From the NCBI RefSeq assembly GCF_020164495.1, contig NZ_JAIQYZ010000003.1, forward strand, positions 124,001-188,000: a DNA stretch of 64,000 nt, in the 5' to 3' direction. This document shows positions 1 to 9,452 of this stretch, piece by piece. The notes beneath the pieces are model-generated. The model did no database searches. It was not told the DNA's origin and saw only the letters and a list, made by a program, of their open reading frames with translations. Both the position numbers and the translations under genes were made by a program. This DNA is from Psychroflexus lacisalsi (lineage in GTDB: Bacteria > Bacteroidota > Bacteroidia > Flavobacteriales > Flavobacteriaceae). Every line of letters starts with the position of its first letter. The stretch's first letter is position 1.

Positions 1-2285
1 CCATTTTTCTTCAAAACATTCGCCATTTTGTTGACGCGTTTTGATAAGTCGTTATAACTTATATGTAGCGCTTTTTCCTGAGGATTATTAGGTTCCCAAA
101 TAATAGCAGTCTTGTTCCCTCTGGTTTTCAGATGCCTGTCTACAGCATTTTCAGTGATATTAAGCTGAGCGCCTTCAAACCAGCTAACCTCAGCTTTTTC
201 AGGGTCCCATTTCAAAACTGAATTCCATTTTCGCTTCCACTCAAAATTACGTTCTGCGATGGTAGCCCAGAAATTCTCTGGATCATTTTGAGAAATTCTG
301 TAGACATCCATATACTTGGCAAGCGAATCAATGTTATAATAACTCTTGGTCAGTGCTTTTAAAGACTGAGTCACTTGATCTTTGTTTTTACTAAAAGCTC
401 CGATTCTCTCATGACTAAAGGTTTCAATAATCTCACTAATGACCATGGGGTCTTCAATAGTGGAAGGAAGTTTATAAGGCTGTCCTGCAACCAGTTTCCT
501 TAAAGTCCTTCTTAAAGTTTTACCACTTCTAGTTTTAGGTAGACGTTTAACAATGACCACATTTTTTAAAGCCGCAATAGCTCCGATTTTATCTCTTACC
601 AACTGAATTATTTCAGTCTGCATTTTATAAGATTCGTAGCCTTCTTCACCTGTTTTTGGGACAACAATAGCTAATGGAATTTCTCCTTTCAGCTCGTCCT
701 GCAATCCAACTACGGCGCATTCTGCAACGGATGGATGTTGAGAAACTACCTCCTCCAGAGCAGCTGTAGAAAGCCGATGACCGGAAACATTAATGACGTC
801 ATCTATTCTACCGGTGATATAGACATACCCCTCTTCGTCAATATAGCCACCATCGCCGGAAAAGTAGAACCCTGGAAATTTACTTAAGTATCCGTTTTTA
901 TAGCGCTCGTGGTTATTCCATAGCGTTTGCATAAAACCTGGAGGAAGCGGCAACCTTGAGCAAATATAACCTTCAGTATTTGCTGGCAACATTTCACCAT
1001 CTTCAGAAAGAATTGCCAGATCGTATCCAGGAACAGCCTTTCCTGCAGAACCAGGTTTAACCGGCTGAGGATCTAGTCCCATATAATTGGCTACAATAGA
1101 CCAACCCGATTCGGTCTGCCACCAATGGTCGATGACAGGGATTTTTAAGTGATCTTCGGCCCATTTTAATGTCGTTTCATCACAACGCTCACCGGCCAGA
1201 AACTGATATTTCAAAGAAGAGATATCATGTTTTTTTATGAATTCACCATTGGGGTCTTCCTTTTTGATGGCTCTGAAGGCCGTTGGAGCAGTGAACATCA
1301 CATTCACTTTATGATCTTCTATAACTCTCCAGAAAGCTCCCGCATCTGGAGTTTTGATAGGCTTTCCTTCATAAATTATGGTGGTATTCCGATGAATCAT
1401 AGGAGCGTAAACGATATAGCTATGGCCAACTACCCAACCAACATCAGATGCTGCCCAGAATACATCTCCGGGTTGTGTTCCGTAGATATTCTTCATGGAA
1501 TATTTCAGTCCGACAGCATATCCCCCTGTATCTCTTACCACTCCTTTAGGTGACCCTGTGGTACCGGAAGTATAAAGTATATAGGAAGGATCTTTAGATT
1601 TTAAAGCGATTGCTTCTGCTGGTTTGGCTTTTTCCAGCAATTCTGAATAATCGATATCATAGGATTTCTCCTCAAATTCTACCCCAAGCTTTCTATTGAA
1701 AACTACAACTTTTTCAACCTTATGTTTAGCTTTTTCAATAGCCTCGTCCACCATGGGTTTGTAAGCTATAAGCCGATCGACTTCAATTCCTGAGGTTGCT
1801 GTAATAATTACTTTTGGTTTGGCATCGTCTATTCTCATGGCCAATTCATCTGGAGCAAAACCTCCAAAAACTACTGAATGAATAGCGCCGATCCTCGCAC
1901 AAGCCAACATGCTGAACACAGAATGAGAAATCATAGGCATATAAATAATGACCCGATCCCCTTTTTCTACACCCAACTCTTTAAGGCCTCCAGCTAGTTT
2001 GGAAACCTTTTCCAAAACCTCATTATAGGTATATTTCACTTGCTTTTGCCTCACAGCTGAATCATAAACAAGAGCTAGTTCATCTCCGTATCCATCCTCA
2101 ATGTGTTTGTCTAAACACAAATAGCTCAAATTGGTTTCACCATCAGGAAACCAGTGATAAATACCTTCAGATGTTTGCTCCAAAGCTTTGGTCGGTGCTT
2201 TGAACCATTTGATTGCTTTTGACTCTTCCATCCAGAATTCCTCTGGCTTCTCAATACTTTTTTGATAAACTTCTTTATAATTCAT
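1..2285 (-). CDS. Tandem acyl-CoA synthetase fusion: PrpE-type module followed in frame by an AcsA-type module (3' end outside window)
   Basis: The frame stays open from ATG at 2285 to the window edge (761 codons). Residues 1 to about 623 form a complete AMP-forming acyl-CoA synthetase of the propionyl-CoA synthetase (PrpE/ACSS3) type. It has the adenylation loop YTSGTTGSPKGV near residue 240, HWWQTESGW, and the C-terminal PKTRSGK motif with catalytic Lys589. After the usual family C-terminus (ISEIIETF, about 616-623) there is no stop. A linker of about 25 residues leads into a second start-like region from about residue 649. It contains NDPENFW, WFEGAQLNITENAVDRH and TAIIWEPNNPQEKA, which is the N-terminal domain of acetyl-CoA synthetase (AcsA). 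The predicted role is ATP-dependent activation of acetate and propionate in the cytoplasm. The start lies 11 nt after the response-regulator stop, so the gene is probably the last of that operon. The fusion is seen directly; that both modules are active is inference. The rest of module 2 cannot be seen. Confidence 0.85.
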   Translation of the reverse strand, partial: MNYKEVYQKSIEKPEEFWMEESKAIKWFKAPTKALEQTSEGIYHWFPDGETNLSYLCLDKHIEDGYGDELALVYDSAVRQKQVKYTYNEVLEKVSKLAGGLKELGVEKGDRVIIYMPMISHSVFSMLACARIGAIHSVVFGGFAPDELAMRIDDAKPKVIITATSGIEVDRLIAYKPMVDEAIEKAKHKVEKVVVFNRKLGVEFEEKSYDIDYSELLEKAKPAEAIALKSKDPSYILYTSGTTGSPKGVVRDTGGYAVGLKYSMKNIYGTQPGDVFWAASDVGWVVGHSYIVYAPMIHRNTTIIYEGKPIKTPDAGAFWRVIEDHKVNVMFTAPTAFRAIKKEDPNGEFIKKHDISSLKYQFLAGERCDETTLKWAEDHLKIPVIDHWWQTESGWSIVANYMGLDPQPVKPGSAGKAVPGYDLAILSEDGEMLPANTEGYICSRLPLPPGFMQTLWNNHERYKNGYLSKFPGFYFSGDGGYIDEEGYVYITGRIDDVINVSGHRLSTAALEEVVSQHPSVAECAVVGLQDELKGEIPLAIVVPKTGEEGYESYKMQTEIIQLVRDKIGAIAALKNVVIVKRLPKTRSGKTLRRTLRKLVAGQPYKLPSTIEDPMVISEIIETFSHERIGAFSKNKDQVTQSLKALTKSYYNIDSLAKYMDVYRISQNDPENFWATIAERNFEWKRKWNSVLKWDPEKAEVSWFEGAQLNITENAVDRHLKTRGNKTAIIWEPNNPQEKALHISYNDLSKRVNKMANVLKKN

Positions 2286-2296
2286 AACCGTGGATT

Positions 2297-2671
2297 TTAA
2301 TTTTTTGGGGTTAGTAACTCGTTTACTGTACTTAAAATTTTTTTCATTGAAAATGGCTTTTTTATATACTCCTTCGCACCAAGATTAAGCCCTTTTTGCA
2401 CATCACTTTGCTTGTGCTTGGCACTTATGATTATGGTTTGAGTAGTATCTTTTAGGGTATCATGACTTTTCAAAAATTCTAAAACTTCATAACCATCAAC
2501 TTTTGGCATCATAATGTCCAGGACTACTAAATCTGGTTTGAGCTTTTCTGCGAGATCAATCGCTTCTTCGCCATCTCTGGCAATATAGATGTCATAATTA
2601 TTTTTTCTTAAACTGTACTCCAGGGCCATAATAATATTAGGCTCATCATCTACGAGTAAAATCTTTTTCAT
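2297..2671 (-). CDS. Single-domain response regulator (CheY-like receiver)
   Basis: This is a 124-residue receiver domain with no output domain. The acidic pair D8/D9 (LLVDDEPN), the phosphoacceptor D52 (VVLDIMMPK) and the conserved Lys in EYIKKPFS are all present. Its start overlaps the stop of the upstream symporter-kinase by 4 nt (ATGA), and its stop lies 11 nt before the acyl-CoA synthetase, so the three genes look translationally coupled. It is most likely the phosphorylation partner of the adjacent kinase. Lacking a DNA-binding domain, it must act by protein-protein contact or pass the phosphate on. Which output it drives cannot be read from the sequence. Confidence 0.93.
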   Translation of the reverse strand: MKKILLVDDEPNIIMALEYSLRKNNYDIYIARDGEEAIDLAEKLKPDLVVLDIMMPKVDGYEVLEFLKSHDTLKDTTQTIIISAKHKQSDVQKGLNLGAKEYIKKPFSMKKILSTVNELLTPKN

Positions 2672-5364
2672 GGTCTACATTTTGGTAAATTCACAATAAG
2701 TTCTGCACCAGTTTCAACATTTGGATTTGCATAAATCACTCCTCTATGCATTTCTACAATTTGTTTACAAATCGCCAGTCCAAAACCACTGCCTTGAAGT
2801 TTTTTGAAGGTTTGGTTCTTGGATTGATAGAATTTTTTAAAAATCAAGTGGAGGTCCTCTTCCGGAATTCCTTTTCCATTGTCTTTAAGTTTGAAAATAA
2901 CTTCTTCTGAATTTGCTTCAAGAAACACTTCTATTTTGCCGTTGTCTTCTGGAACAAATTTTAATGAGTTTGAGAATAAATTTGTGAAAACTTGAAGCAT
3001 TTTGCTATAATCAAATTCAATCATGATAGAAGATGAAGAGTGAAAACCCACCTCAATACTCTTTCTCTCGGCTATGCTACTTATGCCGTTGATTGCATCC
3101 TCAATACATCCGTTTAAGCTTTGAAGCTGAAGATTTAATTCATCTCTTCCTGAAGCCATTTTCTCCAAGTCTAAAATATCGTTGATTAGGATAGTCAATC
3201 GTTCTGTGTCCTGAATAATATTATTTAAAAATTTATGCTGAAGTTCTTCCGGCATATCATTGCCATCCGATAAGACCTCAGAACTTGCTTTGATCGACGT
3301 TATTGGAGTCTTAAGCTCATGAGCAACAGTATCCAGAAAATCATCTTTCAATTGATCTTGAATTCTCAACTCTTCATTGGCAGATTTTAGTTCTGAAGTG
3401 AGTTTAATCAACTTTTGAGATTGTTCTTCCAGCGACTTGTTGACGGAAATAGTTTCTTTATTTTCTTCCAAAATCTTAAGAACTTCAACAAGAGATACCG
3501 GTTTTTCTTTTGCGACATTGGAAATTAAAATTTTTGCTGAAGCACTTCCCACGGCTCCTGTAAGCAAGCGTTCGGAAAAATTGATGAATCGGGCATCTGC
3601 CAATTTTTCTTCCGAATTGACGGCATATCGTTTTCTGAAAACTCTCAAAGCCTTGTCTGCTTTAGCTTGGCCTAAAAAACGAACCAGTATATTCTGAATA
3701 TCCTTAACGTAAGCCTCACCTTTCCAGACGTATGCATTTTCTTTCAGTTCAACTACTTTTTCACTGTTTACGAACATTTCACCATAATTGCGCTCCCGGT
3801 AATTTCCTTTTTTAATGACCGATAGAATCAAATAAGCACCCGTATTAACCAATAAACTCCAGTATAACGCATGATTAACAGGATTTAAAAGGTCAATTCC
3901 AAAAAGTGCATAAGGCTTCAGTGATTCTATTCCCAAAAATCCTTCATCCACAAATTGATGATAACCTGTAACATATTCAGTAATAAAAGGAAGAAGATAG
4001 GTGAATATGATAAGGATCAATCCAAGAATAATTCCCACTTTAGAACCTAAAGCCGAGCCTCTATTCCAAAACATACCTATAAAAAAACTGGGAGCCAACT
4101 GCACGATAATCAAAAAGGAAATAAGCCCAATAGAGAACAATGAAACCTTGGGATCGAAAAGCGCATAAAGTAAATAAGCAAGGATAATAGAACTGAAAAC
4201 ACAAAGTCGTCTTATGTTTTTAATGGTCTTTTCGTTTTTGAACGATTTGCTTCGGGTTAAGTTTTTTATAAATCCATAAGGAATGATAAGGTTATTGCTC
4301 AACATGGTAGACAGAGCTACTGTGGAAACAACGACCATGGAAATCACTGCTGAAAGACCTCCTAGAAACACTAAGATAGCTAACCAATGGTCTCCGAAAT
4401 GCAACGGAATAAGAAGTGTGAAGTAATCGGCATTGGCTTGTTCTCCCAAAACCAGTAATCCTCCCCAGGCAATGAAAATGACAAATACATTGAATAAAAA
4501 AAGGTAAAACGGAAACAACCAGATCGAAGTTTTAAGCTGTTTCCTGTTGGTAAATTCGACCACAGAAGTTTGAAACTGACGCGGCAGCAAGAAAATAGCT
4601 AAAAAAGAAAGGACAATGCTGAAATACCAATTGATACCACCACTCAAACCGTTAATGGTGCTCAACTGATTCAAATCTAAACCAAGACTTGCTTTTTGGT
4701 ATATATCTGTAGTCCCATCAAACACATAGTAAGTGACGTAAACACCAACAATAAGAAAAAAAGTCAATTTCAAAACAGATTCAAACGCTACTGAAAACAT
4801 GACACCCGTTCTATTTTTGGAAGCATCCAAAGCTAAAGTTCCAAAGAATGACGCGAAAATGGCCAGAATTAAAGCAATATAAAAGGTAGAATCCGTCATC
4901 ACCGACGACCCTTCAATTCCAAGTGTAGAAGTAGAAACAATCTCAAAAGTTTCAGAAATCGCTTTGAGCTGGAGGGAGATATAAGGAATAATACTCGCTG
5001 CACAAACCAAAGTAACCAAAGCTCCAAGCGATCTACTGTTCCCATATCTAAGCGAAATAAAATCAGCAATACTGGAAATGTTATACACTTTGGAAAGTTG
5101 AATGATTTTCTTCAGTAAAACAATCCATAAAGGAGCAGCAATGATAGGTCCAAGATAAATGGTAAGGAACTCAACTCCAGATTTTGCAGCCATGCCCACA
5201 CTACCATAATAAGTCCAAGCCGAGCAGTATACGGCCAGGGAAAGCGCATAAACGATGGGGTGTGACACCAGTTTTGAACCTTTATTTTTTTCAGCAAAAA
5301 GAGCAATGAGAAATAGTATTCCCAAATAAACAAAAATGAGTGCTATGAGAGCGGTTTTACTCAT
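2668..5364 (-). CDS. Na+/solute symporter-coupled sensor histidine kinase (CbrA-like)
   Basis: This 898-residue protein has three parts. Residues 1 to about 500 are a multi-spanning membrane region of the sodium/solute symporter (SSS) family. A cytoplasmic STAC-like segment follows, with the characteristic stretch FSERLLTGAVGSASAK. A coiled coil (about 640-670) then leads to a HisKA/HATPase core with H682 in DTVAHELKTP, an N-box (FTNLFSNSLKF), a G1 box (DNGKGIPEEDL) and a G2 box (GSGFGLAI). This is the architecture of CbrA, which links nutrient transport or binding to a two-component switch. It overlaps the response regulator by 4 nt and the small membrane gene upstream by 4 nt. Given the symporter, porin and acyl-CoA synthetase around it, a short-chain carboxylate is the likely signal, but the ligand is inference. 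Confidence 0.93.
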   Translation of the reverse strand: MSKTALIALIFVYLGILFLIALFAEKNKGSKLVSHPIVYALSLAVYCSAWTYYGSVGMAAKSGVEFLTIYLGPIIAAPLWIVLLKKIIQLSKVYNISSIADFISLRYGNSRSLGALVTLVCAASIIPYISLQLKAISETFEIVSTSTLGIEGSSVMTDSTFYIALILAIFASFFGTLALDASKNRTGVMFSVAFESVLKLTFFLIVGVYVTYYVFDGTTDIYQKASLGLDLNQLSTINGLSGGINWYFSIVLSFLAIFLLPRQFQTSVVEFTNRKQLKTSIWLFPFYLFLFNVFVIFIAWGGLLVLGEQANADYFTLLIPLHFGDHWLAILVFLGGLSAVISMVVVSTVALSTMLSNNLIIPYGFIKNLTRSKSFKNEKTIKNIRRLCVFSSIILAYLLYALFDPKVSLFSIGLISFLIIVQLAPSFFIGMFWNRGSALGSKVGIILGLILIIFTYLLPFITEYVTGYHQFVDEGFLGIESLKPYALFGIDLLNPVNHALYWSLLVNTGAYLILSVIKKGNYRERNYGEMFVNSEKVVELKENAYVWKGEAYVKDIQNILVRFLGQAKADKALRVFRKRYAVNSEEKLADARFINFSERLLTGAVGSASAKILISNVAKEKPVSLVEVLKILEENKETISVNKSLEEQSQKLIKLTSELKSANEELRIQDQLKDDFLDTVAHELKTPITSIKASSEVLSDGNDMPEELQHKFLNNIIQDTERLTILINDILDLEKMASGRDELNLQLQSLNGCIEDAINGISSIAERKSIEVGFHSSSSIMIEFDYSKMLQVFTNLFSNSLKFVPEDNGKIEVFLEANSEEVIFKLKDNGKGIPEEDLHLIFKKFYQSKNQTFKKLQGSGFGLAICKQIVEMHRGVIYANPNVETGAELIVNLPKCRP

Positions 5365-5558
5365 TGATCTGTATATTTTTTTAAAATGAAAAAAGAAATA
5401 AAAATACTAGCCAACCATATGGTGAAAACACAGAAATAAAACAAAGGGAAACCCAATACTGAAGTCAGCCGGTTAAAAGCAAACACTAAAGGAATATTGA
5501 AAAGTAAAATCAAGCCGAAGCTTAAAAAAACAAGTTTTTGTTGATGTCTTTTTTTCAT
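5361..5558 (-). CDS. Small two-helix membrane protein upstream of the sensor kinase
   Basis: A 65-residue protein with a basic N-terminus (MKKRHQQK) and two hydrophobic helices (about 9-30 and 35-60). I do not recognise a named family. It overlaps the kinase gene by 4 nt (ATGA at 5361-5364), which suggests translational coupling, and its length and position suggest an accessory subunit of the symporter-like sensor. The true symporter in the next operon also has a small two-helix subunit (DUF4212), so this gene may be the equivalent partner for the sensor. That comparison rests on topology and position only; I see no clear sequence similarity between them. Confidence 0.75.
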   Translation of the reverse strand: MKKRHQQKLVFLSFGLILLFNIPLVFAFNRLTSVLGFPLFYFCVFTIWLASIFISFFILKKYTDQ

Positions 5559-5644: not shown

Positions 5645-7432
5645 TTAATGTCCTGAAGCTTCTTTTGCTCCACTAGGAATTCTCACGTTTTCTACCATCT
5701 CCTGAACATCTGCCGGAGGTGGTGCAGTAAACTTGCTGATGACAATAGATACTATAAAGTTGAAAATCATAGCCACCGTACCAAAGCCCTCTGGTGAAAT
5801 TCCAAACCACCAATCTTCTTTAGTACCACCTCCAAAGAAATCAAATTTAAATTTCAACATATAAAATAACATGAGTGAAATTCCAACGATCATACCGGCA
5901 ACTGCACCTTCTTTATTCATACGCTTATAAAAAATGCCCAAGATAATAGCAGGAAAGAAAGATGCAGCAGCCAGACCAAATGCGAGCGCTACAACGGCAG
6001 CAACAAATCCTGGGGGATTAATTCCAAAATATCCTGCAATCACAACAGCTCCTGTTGCAGAAAGACGAGCAGCAATTAATTCTCCTTTTTCAGATATTTT
6101 GGGGTATACCATTTTTTTAATTAAATCGTGAGATACAGAAGATGAAATTACCAACAAAAGACCTGCAGCAGTGGACAATGCAGCCGCAAGACAGCCTGCA
6201 GCAACCAAGGCAAAAACCCAGTTGGGAAGATCTGCAATCTCTGGATTGGCCATCACCATAATATCATTATCGACATATAACTCATTTTTATTTTCTGAAG
6301 GATTTGTAACTAAACGTTGTCCGCTTTCTCCTCTTTTAGAATCTTGAAATGCAGGTATTCCTGTTAAAGCATCTCCTCCTTCTTTGGCTTTGCCTAAATA
6401 TTGAATCTTTCCATCAGCATTTTTATCTGTCCAAGCCAATAAACCTAAATCCTCCCAGGTCGTAAACCATTCAGGCATTTCAGCATAATCCTTTTGATTG
6501 ACAGTTTCAATTAAATTCAATTTACCAAAAGAAGCAACCGCTGGAGCTGTGATGTAAAGAATACCAATAAATAACAAGGCATATCCAGCAGACTTTCGCG
6601 CGTCCTTCACTCTTTTAACAGTAAAGAATCTCACAATAACATGAGGTAATCCAGCTGTTCCTACCATCAATGCAAGAGTGATTGCTAAAACATCAATCAT
6701 GCTTTTTGATCCTTCGGTATATTCATTAAAACCCAATTCCTTGCTTAAACCATCTAATTTGTCCAGCATATAGGTGTCGGGTTGACTTGCGAGTGTATCA
6801 CCCATACCAAACATTGGAATAGGATTTCCTGTAGCTTGGAAAGAAATGAAAATTGCAGGAACTAGAAAAGCAAAAATCAGCACACAATATTGTGCAACTT
6901 GGGTATAAGTGATTCCTTTCATTCCGCCTAGAACTGCGTAAAATAAAACTATTACCATACCGATGATTACACCGGTTTCAATCTCAACTTCTAGAAATCT
7001 TGAAAAGACAACTCCAACACCTCGCATTTGACCAGCAATGTAAGTGAAGGAAACGATTAGGGCACAGAATACGGCCACAAAGCGAGCAGTCTTGGAATAA
7101 TACCGGTCTCCAATAAAATCTGGAACAGTAAATTTTCCAAATTTCCTTAAGTAAGGCGCAAGTAACAAAGCTAATAATACAAAACCGCCTGTCCAGCCCA
7201 TCAAGAATACTGAACCGTCGTAGCCCATGAACGAAATAATACCTGCCATGGATATAAATGAAGCTGCAGACATCCAGTCGGCTGCCGTTGCCATACCGTT
7301 GGCTAAGGGAGACACGCCGCCACCTGCAACATAAAATTCTTTTGTTGAACCGGCCCGGCTCCAAATCGCTATTCCAATGTAAATAGCGAACGAAACGCCG
7401 ACGAAAATATAAGTTAGTGTTTGAGCATCCAT
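5645..7432 (-). CDS. Sodium:solute symporter, ActP/VC_2705-like large subunit
   Basis: A 595-residue SSS-family transporter with about 13 predicted membrane helices. The N-terminal helix is followed by FYVAGGGVSPLANGMATAADWMS, cut here to its key residues GGGVSPLANG and AADWMSAASF, typical of acetate/monocarboxylate permeases. Between the middle helices there is a hydrophilic insertion of about 90 residues with an EF-hand-like loop (DKNADGKIQ). The stop-to-start gap to the DUF4212 gene upstream is 6 nt, and the porin precedes that, so porin, small subunit and symporter form one uptake operon. The likely substrate is acetate or another short carboxylate, because an acyl-CoA synthetase follows in the locus; the exact substrate is inference. 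Confidence 0.92.
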   Translation of the reverse strand: MDAQTLTYIFVGVSFAIYIGIAIWSRAGSTKEFYVAGGGVSPLANGMATAADWMSAASFISMAGIISFMGYDGSVFLMGWTGGFVLLALLLAPYLRKFGKFTVPDFIGDRYYSKTARFVAVFCALIVSFTYIAGQMRGVGVVFSRFLEVEIETGVIIGMVIVLFYAVLGGMKGITYTQVAQYCVLIFAFLVPAIFISFQATGNPIPMFGMGDTLASQPDTYMLDKLDGLSKELGFNEYTEGSKSMIDVLAITLALMVGTAGLPHVIVRFFTVKRVKDARKSAGYALLFIGILYITAPAVASFGKLNLIETVNQKDYAEMPEWFTTWEDLGLLAWTDKNADGKIQYLGKAKEGGDALTGIPAFQDSKRGESGQRLVTNPSENKNELYVDNDIMVMANPEIADLPNWVFALVAAGCLAAALSTAAGLLLVISSSVSHDLIKKMVYPKISEKGELIAARLSATGAVVIAGYFGINPPGFVAAVVALAFGLAAASFFPAIILGIFYKRMNKEGAVAGMIVGISLMLFYMLKFKFDFFGGGTKEDWWFGISPEGFGTVAMIFNFIVSIVISKFTAPPPADVQEMVENVRIPSGAKEASGH

Positions 7433-7438
7433 AGTTTT

Positions 7439-7708
7439 TTATTTATCGAATCCGTATTTTTTATCTAATTTGTTCATTAACCTCACGTAGACGAAAATCA
7501 AAATGATGAATACGTAGATGGAGCCTTGTTGTGCAAACCAAAAGCCTAGTTTAAAGCCACCAATTTGAAACTGGTCTAACCAGTCTTTAAAAAGTATGCC
7601 TGCTCCATAGGATACAATAAACCATATGGGGAGAAGAATAGCAAGATACTTCAGGTTCTCTTTCCAGTAGGCGGTAGCGTGTTTCTGTTTTTTGTTGTTT
7701 GTTTCCAT
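7439..7708 (-). CDS. DUF4212 symporter small subunit
   Basis: An 89-residue protein with two membrane helices and the family-typical start of a charged N-terminus, then TAYWKENLKYLAILL, then a second helix with FWFAQQGSIYVF. DUF4212 proteins are found next to SSS transporters of the VC_2705 type and are thought to be their small subunit. It lies 6 nt before the symporter gene and 2 nt after the porin gene, as expected for a two-part permease. Confidence 0.93.
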   Translation of the reverse strand: METNNKKQKHATAYWKENLKYLAILLPIWFIVSYGAGILFKDWLDQFQIGGFKLGFWFAQQGSIYVFIILIFVYVRLMNKLDKKYGFDK

Positions 7709-7710
7709 AA

Positions 7711-8925
7711 TTATAAGTATATCATTGCTTGAAGATTTATTCTATTAAAAGTTTGATTTAAGAATCTTTCGTTTTGAAATTCTAGTGTAAGTTTTGAATT
7801 ATGGCCGTTTAAAAATGCGTTGATTCCCAACCCAAAAATTGTTCTATCCTGATTTGAAGCATCTATGAAAGTGTGATTATAGGATGTGTAAGGCTGAAAT
7901 CTTACCGGCTTAGAGCCGGGTAACAAATAACCAACATGACCGTAAAGCATATCCCCAGAAGCGTAAGGACCAAAAAGATAGTTTGTACCATAATCATTGG
8001 ATTGGTAAATAGCGTAGCCAGTTATTGCTGAACCATTATTACCCACGGGAGCATCGTAAAATGCATCTACGGCAAAAAGATTGACATTCTCGCCAACAGG
8101 TTGATCGCTCTGAAGCATTACAGCTCCATTAGGATGATGAAAAAAACCAGCACCCACATTAAAAATACGCTGTGTACCCATGTAGGTGCCTACTTTGTAA
8201 GGAAGAAAATTACTTTCTAAGTTAAAGAAGTTGTATGCAAAATATCCAGTATACGTTTTTCCAGCCTCAGCTGTTCCAAGTAGATTGGCTCCCTGATATG
8301 AAGCGCTAATGTCTGATAGTGGTCTTGAATCAAGACCATTGACAATTGCCTCATTAACAGCTACATTATATTGAAGTTTACCAAAGTTACCCTTGGCAAA
8401 CACACCTATATGCCTTGCAAATTGATCTGTTAAGCCCAAAGTTGCCCAGGATGCCCTATTATTGTCCAAGGTCATCAAGTTAAGGGTTCCTTGGGAATTT
8501 GATCTTGACAATCCATTCCAATAATGAAGGCCTCCTCCTATTACGTGTTGTTCTGAAACGTTATATTGAGCCCAAGCATCATGCATAAACGCCTGAGGAG
8601 TTCCTTCAGAACCAACAGGCTCCATGTTCGAGGAGTTCAAGCTATTGATTCCTATATGAGTTAAAACCAAAAAATCCTTAGTAATTTGTCCATAAACAAG
8701 AAGTCTTGCGCGTCTCAATTGAAAAGAAATAGCAGCCTGATCCTCTGCACGTGAATCTGAGTAATTGGCTTGAGTCTGGACCCAGGTTAAAATCCTTACG
8801 TATTTATTGTCGTTGTCATCAAATTTTATTTTGAAACCACCTTTGTAATAGGGTGAACCCTGAGAAATAGCATTATGACTAAATAAAGCAGCAAACACTA
8901 ATAAAAATGCAATATTATATTTCAT
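7711..8925 (-). CDS. Outer-membrane porin (phosphate-selective porin O/P-like beta barrel)
   Basis: A 404-residue protein with a Sec signal peptide (MKYNIAFLLVFAALFSHNAIS, first 20 residues hydrophobic). Alternating aromatic/polar strands and a C-terminal aromatic-rich strand (INLQAMIYL) mark it as an outer-membrane beta barrel. The strand pattern and the segment LRRARLLVYGQITKDF fit porin families related to OprO/OprP that are common in Bacteroidota. As first gene of the uptake operon it probably lets small anionic substrates into the periplasm for the adjacent symporter. The substrate is inferred only from the neighbours. Confidence 0.85.
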   Translation of the reverse strand: MKYNIAFLLVFAALFSHNAISQGSPYYKGGFKIKFDDNDNKYVRILTWVQTQANYSDSRAEDQAAISFQLRRARLLVYGQITKDFLVLTHIGINSLNSSNMEPVGSEGTPQAFMHDAWAQYNVSEQHVIGGGLHYWNGLSRSNSQGTLNLMTLDNNRASWATLGLTDQFARHIGVFAKGNFGKLQYNVAVNEAIVNGLDSRPLSDISASYQGANLLGTAEAGKTYTGYFAYNFFNLESNFLPYKVGTYMGTQRIFNVGAGFFHHPNGAVMLQSDQPVGENVNLFAVDAFYDAPVGNNGSAITGYAIYQSNDYGTNYLFGPYASGDMLYGHVGYLLPGSKPVRFQPYTSYNHTFIDASNQDRTIFGLGINAFLNGHNSKLTLEFQNERFLNQTFNRINLQAMIYL

Positions 8926-9038: not shown

Positions 9039-9452
9039 TTATTCTTTAAACCGCTCCCATTTAATCATCATAAACTTATCCCCAAGTTCGGTTACAATCA
9101 TACCAGAACCTTTGGTGTTTTCTGAAGAAGAAAAGAATTGCTCAAGCTCAGTCTGGTTTAATATCTTATAAGTAGGATGAAACCCTGTATTTTGAACTTT
9201 ATGAATATTGTATTTTCTCACCCAATTCATTACACTAACGTGAGAGACTCCCAAAATTCTTTCAATTTCACGATAAGTCAACCCTTCTAAATAAAGCTGA
9301 AGAGCCTTAGTGACATAGTATTGATCAATTTTTTTTCCTAATTTATTAACAGTGAAAAAGTAATTACAAGACTTGCATTTATAGCGTTGACGACTATTTA
9401 TAACACCGCTTTTTACGATTTTATCAGATTGACATTGAGGACAAAAATTCAT
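9039..9452 (-). CDS. InsA-like zinc-finger/HTH protein (probably domesticated IS1-type DNA-binding protein)
   Basis: This 137-residue protein starts with a four-cysteine zinc finger (CPQC near residue 4, YKCKSC near residue 25), as in the InsA N-terminus of IS1-family elements. A helix-turn-helix follows (GLTYREIERILGVSHVSVMNW, about 53-73). The last 45 or so residues match nothing I know. No InsB transposase gene follows and no terminal inverted repeats are visible, so it is not an intact insertion sequence. It sits in the same orientation 113 bp upstream of the porin-symporter operon, which suggests a transcription factor recruited from a transposon. A regulatory role there is inference; a transposon remnant is the alternative, though the frame is intact. 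Confidence 0.75.
   Translation of the reverse strand: MNFCPQCQSDKIVKSGVINSRQRYKCKSCNYFFTVNKLGKKIDQYYVTKALQLYLEGLTYREIERILGVSHVSVMNWVRKYNIHKVQNTGFHPTYKILNQTELEQFFSSSENTKGSGMIVTELGDKFMMIKWERFKE

Follow-up and report, generated by a model that had tools for sequence, protein, structure and literature searches.

The first 2285 nt of the window, the 64,000-nucleotide stretch of the Psychroflexus lacisalsi genome that was analysed (G000:C23:124001-188000), belong to one gene on the minus strand that encodes two complete, usually separate ligases end to end, a PrpE-type enzyme and an acetyl-CoA synthetase (Acs). Within the window, this prpE::acs fusion gene is represented by its first 761 codons (1..2285; open frame of 761 residues at 3..2285), which run off the window edge. 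The assembly continues past this edge and the frame closes there as one gene; the complete sequence (L006:4422..8285, minus strand) extends from an ATG to a TAA codon and specifies 1287 residues without an internal stop, the end of the gene lying outside the window at L006:4422. The PrpE-type module (residues 1-623; 417..2285, minus strand) is complete and contains the P-loop, WWQTE, Y.SGDG and PKTRSGK motifs. It is followed by a linker of ∼33 residues (624-656; 318..416, minus strand), inside which no ATG is conserved among the 16 complete genes of the genus, and by the first part of the Acs module (residues 657-761; 3..317, minus strand), the remainder of which lies outside the window and ends at about residue 1281. 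Pfam ACAS_N, AMP-binding and AMP-binding_C are each detected in two stretches of the protein, with the PrpE-like match covering residues 1-622/623 and the Acs match residues 647/657 to 1281. This agrees with an earlier note on this DNA, which had placed a complete PrpE-type enzyme up to residue ∼623 and an AcsA-type enzyme from ∼649 with no stop between them; past position 1 of the window, where that note suggested looking, the second module is indeed complete, and its catalytic lysine (K1244) is retained. Identity between the two modules is 39% over 629 aligned positions, and they represent the only close acyl-CoA synthetase matches in the genome, other matches to the protein being 21-28% alike.

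A scan of L006:4000-8700 detected 19 promoter-like sites, where shuffled sequences gave 12.7 +/- 3.6, and three terminator-like sites, where they gave 3.3. The one strong hairpin (L006:4149-4184) lies beyond the tRNA-His gene (4187-4261) found downstream of the fusion gene.

The sensing and uptake cluster

The fusion gene is the last in a series of genes, all on the minus strand, in the order porin, DUF4212, symporter, 65-aa ORF, histidine kinase, response regulator and prpE::acs. Its location at the end of a sensing and uptake locus, also proposed in the earlier note, is borne out by the conservation of this cluster in related loci. The response regulator (2297..2671, minus strand; 124 aa) precedes the fusion gene by 11 bp and is a single-domain protein in which Response_reg covers residues 4-116 only. 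The membrane histidine kinase (2668..5364, minus strand; 898 aa) matches only HisKA and HATPase in Pfam; its N-terminal part looks like SLC5 on visual inspection alone, with no SSF call by Pfam. A 65-aa ORF without a Pfam match (5361..5558, minus strand) occupies the gap between symporter and kinase, as it does in many related loci. The sodium/solute symporter (5645..7432, minus strand) is assigned to the VC_2705 family and adjoins a DUF4212 protein (7439..7708, minus strand) that recurs in related loci. The porin-like protein (7711..8925, minus strand) scores below the cut-off of NCBIfam porin_ExtI (70 of 150 bits). Next to the cluster, a 137-aa IS1-like protein (window 9039-9452) scores 78.8 bits against a cut-off of 100.

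The distribution of the kinase front part (>150 bits) was surveyed in 101 of 211 loci, with flank lengths that differ in all groups. It was found in 22 of 34 loci with prpE (7/9 fused, 15/25 unfused) versus two of the 67 that carry acs only; six of the loci that gave no hit (L084-L089) are truncated within the kinase gene and show its kinase part together with the regulator. The two acs-only loci with a kinase, L164 and L171, carry kinase and regulator genes directly before acs without a prpE, which argues against a strict tie of the kinase to prpE. Within the genus, the kinase is present (E 1e-100 or better) in 19 of 27 genomes, all of which have prpE; at this threshold it is absent from the five acs-only genomes, from the fused G005 and G022, and from G021 (Fisher p 0.0007 for the association, with G021 counted among genomes with prpE and kinship ignored).

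CrbR has an output domain; the regulator encoded here is a bare receiver domain, in which no output domain was detected, and the enzyme gene of the locus is prpE::acs. The accessible part of PMC5715377 describes the regulation of acetate by CrbS/CrbR, with acs and actP, and as far as described there the present locus resembles that system in having a histidine kinase (the front of which looks like SLC5 on inspection), a response regulator, a symporter and an Acs.

Distribution and origin of the fusion

The genome samples that were screened (genus, family, order and phylum) overlap. Among 27 genomes of the genus, 16 contain a complete one-frame gene and four more a contig-cut copy that crosses the junction, so that 20/27 are fused; the possibility raised in the earlier note, that homologues in close relatives might always be split into two genes, was looked at and is not what these genomes contain. 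The seven not seen fused comprise five with acs alone (G001, G002, G006, G016, G019), one with separate prpE and acs genes (G024) and one with acs and part of a prpE where the contig ends (G021). In the family, a PrpE-type match of >670 bits (the next being 567) was obtained from 28 of 299 genomes, none of the matches being above the family's cut-off, and most genomes of the family therefore lack this prpE; six of the 28 are fused (in four genera), 21 have an adjoining separate acs and in one (G303) no acs was seen beside it. Across 395 genomes of the order, full-length stop-free matches were found in six (G000, G003, G007, G335, G339, G666), and a further 23 align over both halves, one of them partly, with stops between. 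A strict threshold yielded matches in 40 of 296 genomes of the phylum, with G000 and G003 the only fused ones among these. Named genomes, of which the best 80 loci were considered, include at least one fusion (Pontibacter litorisediminis, L134), at least 17 with prpE and acs side by side and at least 62 with acs only. Fusions were also counted in three of four members of the genus of G029 (the fourth being split over contigs), in one of three of the family of G339 and in one of two of the family of G335. The plasmid collection gave 320 matching records; among the best 15, 12 matches span ∼1.9 kb, corresponding to single genes, and three (H1, H3, H6) span 4.7-4.9 kb. Open frames of 1320-1497 aa in six genomes of family f5 (G664, G494, G489, G419, G377, G602) proved not to be fusions, their prpE and acs ORFs being separate. 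A contig labelled Chloroflexi contains adjoining PrpE-like and Acs-like genes (L138:238-4290); its PrpE sits on a long branch and groups with Bacteroidota PrpEs, suggesting transfer or mis-binning.

Adjacent prpE and acs genes, in that order on the same strand, were detected at 73 loci with gaps of -8 to 636 nt, 40 of the 73 being in the same frame; the screen of the order favours same-frame pairs, and the 73 include one prpE fragment and two loci (L042 and L152) from what is, by its length, the same contig. In relatives that possess prpE, acs usually lies directly after it, at the end of the conserved porin, DUF4212, symporter, histidine kinase and response regulator cluster, and loss of the stop codon between neighbouring genes is thus the likely origin of the fusion.

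The linkers are of four kinds, belonging to the own genus, to a class B (G029, G263, G229, G294, G335, G339), to L103 and to Pontibacter. Clade tests of the PrpE halves used a quick LG+G4 tree from which the long branches L103 and L136 were left out. A single clade of fused PrpE halves that includes Pontibacter was rejected (27 rows, AU p 0.0018); one that unites the own genus with class B was not (26 rows, p 0.544). For the Acs halves, a reduced tree was employed (85 of 194 rows, after removal of L138, L055, roughly half the pairs and three-quarters of all acs-only rows), on which a clade of the own genus, class B, G001 and G002 gave p 0.057, and p 0.47 when L103 was added. The label changes needed number four on the PrpE tree (100 rows; three without L103 and L136) and five on the Acs tree (194 rows; four on the reduced tree). 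These results suggest at least two origins of the fusion; a single older fusion that was several times re-split is possible as an alternative.

Secondary loss also appears to have contributed to the present distribution. In the Acs tree, the acs-only genomes G001 and G002 fall in one clade with 20 fused rows of the genus (support 100), G002 deep inside a 16-row clade (100) and G001, with less certainty, inside a 6-row clade (88). The Acs proteins of both begin with a linker-like tail (SLKELSKEYYNIDSLAKY in G002 versus SLKALTKSYYNIDSLAKY in the window). In G002 (L091:3551-6312), the gene directly before acs is LmbE-like and 89% identical to its counterpart in the window. There, 9.2 kb separate this gene from the corresponding position in the linker, so G002 has no equivalent of the window block that comprises an IS1-like gene, the porin, DUF4212, symporter and kinase genes, the regulator gene and the PrpE half. 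As judged from these comparisons G002 later lost its PrpE half, and G001 probably did likewise; the IS1-like protein is possibly linked to the loss of the cluster in G002. The acs genes of G006, G016, G019, G021 and G024 fall on a separate branch of the Acs tree, perhaps as a result of replacement.

Constraint on the fused gene was estimated by comparing the 16 complete genus genes with one another (120 pairs), pairs being dropped where dS was <=0.05, >=2 or not computable. Median dN/dS values, which are rough since mean dS exceeds 1, were 0.081 for the PrpE core (29 pairs), 0.047 for the PrpE tail (61), 0.20 for the linker (37) and 0.080 for Acs (22), indicating purifying selection in the PrpE and Acs halves, with the linker as the least constrained part. 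The P-loop, WWQTE, Y.[ST]GDG and the PKTRSGK lysine were checked in 28 fused proteins (24 complete and four cut by contig ends). Of the 24 complete proteins, 23 have all of these motifs in each module, the exception being L103; three of the four cut proteins lack motifs, in each case from the region removed by the contig end. Both halves look able to work.

It is quite possible that the fusion is neutral, a lost stop having been tolerated and inherited without any gain from joining. The gene order is the same in 73 pairs, 40 of them in one frame, and few mutations suffice for fusion; the linker is weakly constrained, and loss of the PrpE half from G002, and probably from G001, implies that the fusion is dispensable. 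Against this, the fusion has been kept in most congeners and in lineages whose fused PrpE halves are down to 66% identical to that of the window. Fused, unfused and secondarily reduced forms in close relatives provide a natural test of covalent 1:1 coupling of ligases.

Probable activities of the two modules

The whole-protein scores of model searches sum both modules and only the scores of each module alone are comparable with cut-offs, so whole-protein scores are not to be taken as passing, a caution that applies equally to annotation pipelines. Module 2 alone (residues 641-1287) scores 959.7 bits against the TIGR02188 Acs equivalog, above its cut-off of 724.95, and its closest solved chain is 2p20, a Salmonella-type Acs. 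Relative to the reference pocket of the latter (W309, V/I310, T311, V386, W414, and catalytic K609), module 2 has an acetate pocket composed of W941, I942, T943, V1018 and W1046, in which T943 corresponds to Thr311 and V1018 to Val386, and K1244 aligns with K609. Module 2 thus resembles AcsA (TIGR02188; PDB 2p20/1pg4) over its full length, in its motifs and in its pocket except for Ile in place of Val310, and differs in being the second half of a double protein and in having lost, in the genus, a start methionine for itself. Its substrate would be acetate and its product acetyl-CoA, a well-grounded assignment and a better one than that of a substrate to module 1. According to the accessible text, a fungal Acs uses propionate much less well than acetate (PMC8383264), and an anammox Acs is nearly as active with propionate (PMC3477478); from these partial sources, an Acs need not be acetate-only.

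Module 1 alone (residues 1-640) scores 752.3 and 700.1 bits against the PrpE equivalog models NF007815 (cut-off 955) and TIGR02316 (cut-off 827.4), and passes the loose Acs subfamily model with 669 bits (cut-off 657). It is nearer to the PrpE than to the Acs models (752/700 versus 669/660 bits), and the unfused prpE of G024, used as a control, behaves likewise (732, 680 and 675 bits) and is also below the PrpE cut-offs. The tandem of PrpE-type and AcsA-type enzymes described in the earlier note is upheld, the motifs of both being intact, with the reservation that its first half falls short of both PrpE equivalogs. Module 1 is like PrpE in best match, in full-length alignment and at two positions of its pocket, and unlike it in scoring below the curated cut-offs on its own and in being joined to an Acs. 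Its aligned acyl-pocket positions are W284, V285, V286, A364 and W389, with V286 and A364 corresponding to T943 and V1018 of module 2; Val and Ala occupy these two positions in all 72 unfused PrpE rows aligned. A Val-to-Ala change at position 386 of Acs widens the acyl range towards propionate. The hypothesis that the acyl range is determined by exchange of one among four conserved residues of the pocket is put forward in the accessible part of PMC3477478, and Lys592 of Salmonella PrpE is cited as the lysine needed for propionate activation in that of PMC7143216. A C3 acid, giving propionyl-CoA or acryloyl-CoA, is most likely the substrate of module 1; since the module alone lies under the PrpE cut-offs, as does the unfused control, this is a substrate that we infer.

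Activity of module 1 on a small acid other than propionate (acrylate from DMSP, 3-hydroxypropionate, butyrate or isobutyrate) is rather unlikely, yet its scores below the PrpE cut-offs would fit such a role. The closest solved chain to module 1 is 5gxd (775 bits, the next chain having 471), which we take to be the PrpE of Dinoroseobacter shibae. The PrpE of D. shibae was used to form acryloyl-CoA from acrylate, according to the accessible part of PMC5651017. PrpE models are still the best matches of module 1, and the genome encodes methylmalonyl-CoA mutase to use propionyl-CoA, but acrylate too can end in propionyl-CoA (PMC5651017, same part). Presence of the mutase genes, together with the lack of any PrpD match at E 0.001 in the genome, points to the methylmalonyl-CoA route rather than the methylcitrate route. 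One SIR2-type gene is found in the genome, and the catalytic lysines (K589 and K1244) are conserved in both modules; a shared lysine-acetylation control, as put forward in the earlier note, would be conceivable. A second methylmalonyl-CoA-mutase-like gene (G000:C12:353084-354769) lies in a frame of 1148 aa that is perhaps an IcmF-type fusion.

Taken with the gene order, these features make it likely that prpE::acs specifies a real double acyl-CoA synthetase, produced from neighbouring prpE and acs genes by loss of a stop and combining an acetate ligase with a probable C3 acid ligase. In the proposed scenario, neighbouring ancestral prpE and acs genes, the last ones in a cluster for sensing and taking up short-chain acids, were merged when the stop between them was lost, placing two complete AMP-forming ligases on one chain joined by ∼33 residues. 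Each module would adenylate its own acid and swing its own C-terminal lid to form the CoA thioester; a lid swing of ∼140 degrees and the role of K609 are described in the accessible text of PMC4053389. The linker would permit the swing of the first lid. Module 2 would yield acetyl-CoA, and module 1 most likely propionyl-CoA (or acryloyl-CoA), which would feed the methylmalonyl-CoA route. Any gain would lie in a single message and a single protein supplying both ligases at a constant 1:1 ratio. An AlphaFold2 model of residues 500-1120 (12 sequences) was poor (mean pLDDT 46) and unusable for the packing of the halves.

A regulatory role for the joining, in which the PrpE-type half would control the Acs half or act as its scaffold, is improbable; it is suggested by L103 (4265-8050) of G666, a genome of the same order, because there a first half without the four motifs persists before a lysine-bearing Acs half. 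Module 1 of this fused 1261-aa protein lacks all four motifs including the lysine (SGVKGSARG at the P-loop, WWHSEG, PKNKSGE) and still spans ∼600 open codons; module 2 keeps the P-loop, WWQTE and the final lysine (PRTRSGK), with YFTGDA replacing the strict Y.[ST]GDG. Such loss was seen in this one genome only, where the PrpE-like half is possibly a pseudo-ligase domain.

Production of two proteins from the fusion gene, through a start codon within it or cleavage of the linker, is very improbable. The Pontibacter fusion keeps a methionine (M652) where the acs start would be, and some GTG or TTG codons occur in the linkers of single genes; however, across codons 606-672 of the 16 complete genus genes the only conserved ATG is codon 614, within the PrpE C-terminus, ATG 659 is present in 10 of the 16, and the junctions of the six class B fusions contain no ATG. 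Disappearance of a stop through faulty sequencing or assembly can be dismissed, because 16 complete and four contig-cut one-frame copies occur among the 27 genomes of the genus, including the single-contig G018 and G025, and the frame is also single in other genera.

No description of a PrpE-Acs fusion was found in the open-access papers searched, subscription papers lying largely outside this scope, and the accessible parts of PMC4053389, PMC7143216, PMC11861179, PMC2702500 and PMC11212195 do not mention one. Two normally separate enzymes of central carbon activation form one chain in most genomes of the genus and in some other Bacteroidota, a genuine and conserved fusion of two known enzymes that is probably recurrent, and a real but modest surprise. 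An AMP-forming acyl-CoA synthetase domain within a large chain is also seen in PDB 6eqo (1850 aa), which we take to combine a ligase, a hydratase and a reductase acting in turn on one substrate, whereas the protein described here contains two parallel ligases of the same fold.
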